A stretch of 64,000 nucleotides of DNA from assembly GCA_902386555.1 (NCBI GenBank), contig CABMJJ010000009.1, forward strand, positions 409,870 through 473,869, written 5' to 3'. The translations under genes and the position numbers were made by a program. A model generated the notes under the pieces. It did no database searches. It was not told where the DNA came from and worked only from the letters and a program-made list of their open reading frames with translations. Shown piece by piece: positions 9,528-10,029 of this stretch. The stretch's first letter is position 1. Every line of letters begins with the position of its first letter. This DNA comes from Candidatus Bilamarchaeum dharawalense (GTDB taxonomy: Archaea; Micrarchaeota; Micrarchaeia; Anstonellales; Bilamarchaeaceae).

Positions 9528-9622
9528 AACAATAAAAAATGGGCCCGCGCGGAATCGGACCGCGTATCTCCTGCATTCCGCCTTTTAGGAAAAGGCGGCC
9601 CAAAACGGGTTTGCTATTTCCT

Positions 9623-9661
9623 AAAAGTTTTTGGCTTTACCTTTTTTCTAAAAAGGTAAAA
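9623..9661 (-). repeat. Intron repeat copy in the anticodon-loop intron of tRNA-Val
   Basis: This 39-nt segment starts at the 5' splice region and contains the stem TTTACCTTTTT/AAAAAGGTAAA followed by CCAAAAAC. It matches the D-arm intron segment at 9695-9735 with one substitution and two single-base gaps. The rest of the intron holds a second hairpin, CCGCCTTTT/AAAAGGCGG. Confidence 0.8.
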
Positions 9662-9694
9662 TGTCAAGCAGGCGTCTTACCATTGTCGTTAACC

Positions 9695-9735
9695 AAAATG
9701 TTTTTGGTTTTACCTTTTTTCCTAAAAAGGTAAAA
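9695..9735 (-). repeat. Intron repeat copy in the D-arm intron of tRNA-Val
   Basis: This 41-nt segment has the stem TTTTACCTTTTT/AAAAAAGGTAAAA and then CCAAAAACATTTTGG. Its near identity to the copy at 9623-9661 implies that one intron was copied into the second site of the same tRNA gene. Confidence 0.8.
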
Positions 9736-9786
9736 ATCGACTACGAGCCCAGTAGAACTATTTCATAGGGCGATAGATTTTATATA

Positions 9787-10029
9787 TTATCCTTCAGTGG
9801 AAAAAACGTGGGTTCTTTCCCAAATGGGGGTTTTTTCCTGAGTCGGTAGTGCCTGGCGTGCTAGATTTCTGATGGTATAGGACGGATCGTGCTCAGAAAT
9901 ATAGTCCAAAGACAGACGTGCCATGTGACTATTGCCCATGTGTTGTTTTAACCCACGTATTGCTTCCTTCCTTTCCAGTACACTTTTACTGGATAATTTT
10001 TTTATCAAAACTGCAATTACATCATTCAT
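9787..10029 (-). CDS. Small HEAT-like helical protein
   Basis: The 80-residue protein looks like a pair of HEAT-like helices (VLIKKLSSKSVLERKEAIRGL, then a second repeat ending YTIRNLARQALP). I place the start at the ATG at 10029, which overlaps the stop of the upstream gene by 8 nt and has GAGGCGACC before it; the longer open frame upstream lies within the preceding gene. It is therefore probably translated together with the large helical protein at 10022-11905. Function unknown. Confidence 0.55.
   Translation of the reverse strand: MNDVIAVLIKKLSSKSVLERKEAIRGLKQHMGNSHMARLSLDYISEHDPSYTIRNLARQALPTQEKTPIWERTHVFSTEG

Follow-up and report, generated by a model that had tools for sequence, protein, structure and literature searches.

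A candidate mobile hairpin-tail module in the tRNA-Val(GAC) introns and other stable-RNA genes of one Micrarchaeota genus

The origin and spread of archaeal tRNA introns is an open question, on which the module described here bears, and the only large case of such spread known to us is that of the Thermoproteales. There, introns have transposed across tRNAs, according to the relevant portions of two reviews (PMC4090602, PMC4033280). In Caldiarchaeum, tRNA disruption is driven by mobile elements, a 1.8-kb recombinase-bearing element being implicated (PMC3293823). In ARMAN-1 and ARMAN-2, tRNA introns are cut by an epsilon2 endonuclease, as parts of two accounts describe (PMC12397907, PMC4033280).

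The present case is a tRNA-Val(GAC) gene in a 64-kb window (the whole stretch of DNA that was analyzed), in which both introns carry copies of a hairpin-tail module. As in the Thermoproteales, with which it was compared via the two reviews, there are several introns per tRNA and a permissive splicing endonuclease. However, phylum and endonuclease type are different (epsilon2 here, not alpha-beta), and the unit here has a fixed grammar and is placed against the borders of exons, in either orientation, and outside introns as well. As in Caldiarchaeum, intron gain would be tied to DNA-level mobile activity at tRNA genes, but through units of about 35-50 nt, for which no enzyme was seen, in place of a 1.8-kb element bearing a recombinase. 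Phylum, enzyme class and introns at several positions are shared with ARMAN-1/2, for which the portions of PMC12397907 and PMC4033280 considered here describe neither a repeated hairpin module nor run-length matching. The module is also MITE-like in being short, dispersed, partly palindromic and found in either orientation, and full anticodon introns resemble two inverted copies of it; some introns contain two inverted modules (the Val anticodon intron and L033), many contain one. It differs from MITEs in its near-exclusive tRNA location and in having no consistent target-site duplication. We found no description of such a module in Micrarchaeota in the open-licence literature; tRNA intron transposition is already known in Thermoproteales, and what look new are this module and this lineage. 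Our main reading, to which we give a probability of roughly 0.7, is that a mobile or gene-converted hairpin-tail module has been dispersed as short DNA into the stable-RNA genes of the genus, where the endonuclease tolerates it by a predicted splicing.

The tRNA-Val(GAC) gene and its introns

The features of the gene are as follows.

9540..9750, minus strand: tRNA-Val(GAC) gene, interrupted twice; ARAGORN calls the exon cloverleaf once both introns are removed
9778..9790, minus strand: TATA-like box ATAATATATAAAA, read from the sequence, 27 nt before the first tRNA base
9736..9750, minus strand: exon 1, GGGCTCGTAGTCGAT, tRNA positions 1-15, from ARAGORN; splice site placed by a 4-bp GUCG/CGAC helix and intronless relatives
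9683..9735, minus strand: D-arm intron, 53 nt, at about 15/16; site also occupied in tRNA-Val(UAC) (L019) and in same-order relatives
9708..9735, minus strand: hairpin of module copy 1 (T5, AGG, A6), abutting the 5' splice site and followed by tail CCAAAAAC
9662..9682, minus strand: exon 2, TGGTAAGACGCCTGCTTGACA, with anticodon GAC inside, from ARAGORN on joined exons
9576..9661, minus strand: anticodon-loop intron, 86 nt, at 37/38; position and two-hairpin layout matched in G001 (L033) and G012 (L032)
9636..9660, minus strand: hairpin of module copy 2 (T5, AG, A6), at the 5' splice site and followed by tail GCCAAAAAC
9578..9598, plus strand: hairpin of module copy 3 (CCGCC, T4, AGG, A4, GGCGG), inverted relative to the tRNA and 2 nt from the 3' splice site
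9540..9575, minus strand: exon 3, tRNA positions 38-73, from ARAGORN on joined exons

When both introns are removed, ARAGORN folds the joined exons into a 72-nt cloverleaf called tRNA-Val(gac), so that a canonical tRNA is left, as for archaeal introns spliced by the endonuclease. With the introns in place, ARAGORN run with its intron options found no tRNA in the 64-kb window, an intron in the anticodon loop being the only kind that it models; Rfam at the gathering threshold gave no match in the same window. The D-arm boundary was fixed by the GUCG/CGAC helix at the junction together with the intronless relatives GTCGATCGG and GTCGACTGG. This choice pairs U15 with A48, whereas the paralogous tRNA-Val(UAC) has G15 with C48, which would plausibly be covariation between the two paralogues. 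The TATA-like box is consistent with expression of the gene. The RNAs of both introns are predicted to fold better than shuffled sequences (z about -3.3).

Form and distribution of the module

The initial annotation had the lengths of the two introns exactly right, and it correctly saw related sequence in both. The alignment, which takes in roughly the first 42 nt of each intron, holds 39 identities over 43 columns, with one gap and three substitutions, and within it a 35-nt core differs by one substitution and one gap; the local score is 64, whereas the best of 2000 dinucleotide shuffles reached 37. The initial annotation missed the third, inverted unit at 9578-9598 in the anticodon intron, and the presence of the shared segment outside the Val gene. 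A pattern search counts three module units in the gene and none elsewhere in the window. In its common form the module has one strand of a stem followed by T(n), a loop of three bases and A(n), then the complementary strand and CA(n)C, that is, [stem]T(n)-loop-A(n)[stem']..CA(n)C. The tail of copy 3, CCCAAAAC, extends to 9606 on the plus strand, and its CCGCC stem is the most common type in the genus.

Module patterns match 12 times in the genome itself, compared with 0 for a reversed control. A 216-base query against 59 genomes (this one and its relatives) returned many short matches, limited to intron hairpins, and all 27 named loci in public genomes are titled Candidatus Micrarchaeota, apart from those of two isolates titled simply "archaeon"; the named matches thus are Micrarchaeota or an unplaced archaeon, not Thermoproteales. 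By pattern search the module occurs in 20 of 295 genomes of the phylum: 14 of the 17 of this genus, the two members of a second genus and four more. It is concentrated in this genus and its sister genus. Near-identical intron sequence is found across different tRNAs and positions, as in tRNA intron transposition, and the other tRNA introns contain the module in dozens of cases. The wider idea that intron sequence moves between tRNA positions is strongly supported across the genus. Recent and nearly identical copies are numerous in its 17 species genomes and occupy a variety of tRNA sites, so that the rules of insertion, orientation and splicing can be read from them directly.

The narrower claim of the initial annotation, that copying within the gene placed an intron at a second site, fares less well, each Val copy having a closer relative elsewhere. 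Over the core, the two Val copies are at edit distance 2 from each other, the anticodon copy is at distance 1 from a copy in a tRNA-His 3' flank, and the D-arm copy is at distance 1 from a copy in a tRNA 3' flank of another species (G014). The Val D-arm position (GTCG...CGACAA|TGG) carries unrelated introns in the tRNA-Val of many same-order genomes (G001, G024, G030, G031, G040, G051 and G056) and is empty in others (G003, G007, G012, G016, G028, G033 and G047). The D-arm intron of tRNA-Val(UAC) in the same genome (L019) has the 3' end GGTTAAC in common with that of tRNA-Val(GAC) and a different hairpin stem. The D-arm site of tRNA-Val(GAC) was thus probably intron-bearing already, with only its hairpin resembling the other intron. 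The anticodon introns of G001 and G012 keep the two-hairpin plan with other stems.

Local gene conversion that moved the anticodon-intron hairpin into an existing D-arm intron, or the reverse, would account for two such similar copies in one gene and for their common TTTACC stem, used rather than the commoner CCGCC. However, TTTACC also occurs in a tRNA-Gln D-arm intron and beside a tRNA-Leu. Taken together, the nearer relatives elsewhere, the probably prefilled D-arm site and the dispersal of the module mean that within-gene copying is not supported, and we consider it unlikely. Judged from these sequences, the Val pair would be indistinguishable, as a record of a within-gene event, from genus-wide spread. 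The two similar Val introns most likely represent two landings of the module rather than self-copying of an intron within the gene.

Run lengths and loop-tail pairing

The length of the T-run in the hairpin matches that of the A-run in the tail. Across the 17 genomes of the genus, T4 hairpins are followed by A4 in 118 cases and by A5 in 2, T5 hairpins by A5 in 102 and by A4 in 2, and T6 hairpins, which were searched with A6 only, by A6 in 32. The classes searched therefore sum to 252 matched and 4 mismatched (Fisher p about 1e-59, with related genomes treated as independent), while reversed-pattern controls gave 1 for T4/A4 and 0 each for T4/A5, T5/A5, T5/A4 and T6/A6. In a MAFFT alignment of the module, T4 and T5 hairpins fall out of register. 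For ten stem types both n=4 and n=5 are found, which shows that the match does not merely reflect two subfamilies by descent. A second dependence links loop and tail: where the middle base of the loop is C, the base after the A-run is G (7 of 7), and otherwise it is C (212 of 213). The middle base of the loop thus covaries with, and is complementary to, the base after the A-run.

Such an exact length match points to a real structural constraint. It suggests that the tail, in DNA or RNA, runs beside the T/A helix and pairs to the loop, giving an H-type pseudoknot or a triple-stranded fold; when the other strand is read, the polarity would fit a U.A-U triple helix. Since the module is found either way round with respect to the tRNA, it may be DNA, and not RNA, that is constrained. 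One explanation weighed for the run match, a duplex of the tail with the hairpin T-run and loop GG, fails for loops of the AGT and AC types. The constraint can be tested in vitro, and the endonuclease class has already been crystallized. Somewhat short of an even chance, in our estimate, is a bolder proposal: a new and very small element, mobile or structural, in which the T(n)/A(n) helix equals the tail A(n) in length and is locked by one loop-tail base pair, may have colonized nearly every kind of exon edge in the stable-RNA genes of one genus, bringing portable splice-site helices.

The same grammar might have been reached by introns independently, by convergence and with no copying, if the endonuclease or an RNA fold demanded it. 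The stems, free to vary yet perfectly complementary, with ten types at both n=4 and n=5, would fit this, as would hairpins abutting exon boundaries on either side. Against it, 25-35 nt are exactly identical among many loci and the tail context TTGCTAT is held in common, both too specific for convergence, and the motif is absent from other Micrarchaeota with introns at the same sites. We regard convergence as quite improbable.

Location, spread and splicing of the module

To locate copies, 40 were picked by pattern alone. Twenty-four lie within 300 nt of a T-arm, as compared with 10% of random positions in the same loci, and reading reveals tRNA exons around 14 more, which places 38 of 40 in or against a tRNA; the other two are L073 and L099. 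At L073 (G000:C7:117184) the copy adjoins a repeated CTTGTTATCCTCCC...CTGACCAGGGTTTCTAG sequence, possibly an unrecognized RNA gene. Intron sites with the module include the D-arm, the anticodon loop and the T-arm. Outside introns, it occurs at tRNA 3' flanks (L004, L006, L028, L170), at tRNA 5' flanks (L015, L103), at the 3' end of SRP RNA (L065) and, with a degenerate tail, at that of RNase P RNA (L181). In the cases read, it is the hairpin side that faces the exon boundary, the order being hairpin-tail after an exon and tail-hairpin before one, and either orientation relative to the tRNA is found. The genome has RNase P RNA, so that loss of RNase P was rejected as the reason why hairpins stand at tRNA 5' ends. 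It is very improbable that transcription terminators, or DNA signals of another kind, gave rise to the copies by drifting into tRNA genes: although some come after the 3' ends of tRNA, SRP RNA and RNase P RNA genes and have T-runs, the majority sit within tRNA genes, where stopping transcription would do harm, and a few stand before tRNA 5' ends (L015, L103).

The restriction to tRNA is not absolute, because one copy (L176, G000:C9:111300-112000) lies in the 5' UTR of a DRG/OBG-like GTPase gene, just before its start codon, and a two-hairpin, intron-like insert (L179, G000:C4:50800-51500) lies between the D' and C' boxes of a C/D-box-like RNA, which it appears to interrupt. Pattern copies in distant families (G097, G175, G182) had been candidates for tRNA introns; they sit in protein-coding DNA and were not counted. 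There, hairpin-tail-like coding DNA directly precedes a pilin-like QSAMEYLMTYGW motif (L128, L129, L130), and in L129 it stands between repeated copies of the coding sequence of this motif. One tRNA-Val (L060/L106, G001:C88) has three introns, in the D-arm, anticodon loop and T-arm. Several contigs stop at, or close to, module-bearing tRNA genes (L064, L080 and L015, on G000 C3, C9 and C11), which suggests that module repeats break the assembly; most of the genomes concerned are metagenome assemblies.

In the dispersal that we favor, DNA insertion or gene conversion between tRNA loci would spread copies of the module, mainly into tRNA introns and also to either side of tRNAs and to the ends of the SRP RNA and the RNase P RNA. 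No clear target-site duplication was seen in the Val introns. At L014, L044 and L072, the tRNA 3' end is duplicated downstream of or around a flanking hairpin insertion; these duplications resemble target-site duplications and hint at insertion.

A hairpin set against an exon boundary, with a short bulge between, would provide the second helix of a relaxed helix-bulge-hairpin junction, and cutting of this junction by the epsilon2 endonuclease would restore mature tRNA-Val. In minimum free energy folds, the GUCG/CGAC helix of 4 bp forms at the D-arm junction, whose 3' site has a 3-nt AAU; the anticodon junction departs from the textbook bulge-helix-bulge. The ARMAN-2 endonuclease has broad specificity and cuts relaxed junctions, as part of PMC12397907 describes. 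The present genome encodes a 391-aa, three-unit endonuclease of epsilon2 type, which matches ARMAN-2 4fz2 over its length (E=3e-131) and retains the GTYK loop motif (Y160/K161) as well as the catalytic Tyr, His and Lys. Its gene is intact, and by homology to ARMAN-2 the enzyme is predicted to cut relaxed sites; the module would be tolerated because an enzyme of this type can cut relaxed junctions. Beside it, a second protein of the tRNA endonuclease family, of 166 aa, is encoded (L111:1459-1959, G000:C11, minus strand). When aligned to 1a79, this protein has His and Thr in place of the catalytic Tyr and His, and it may be a non-catalytic partner.
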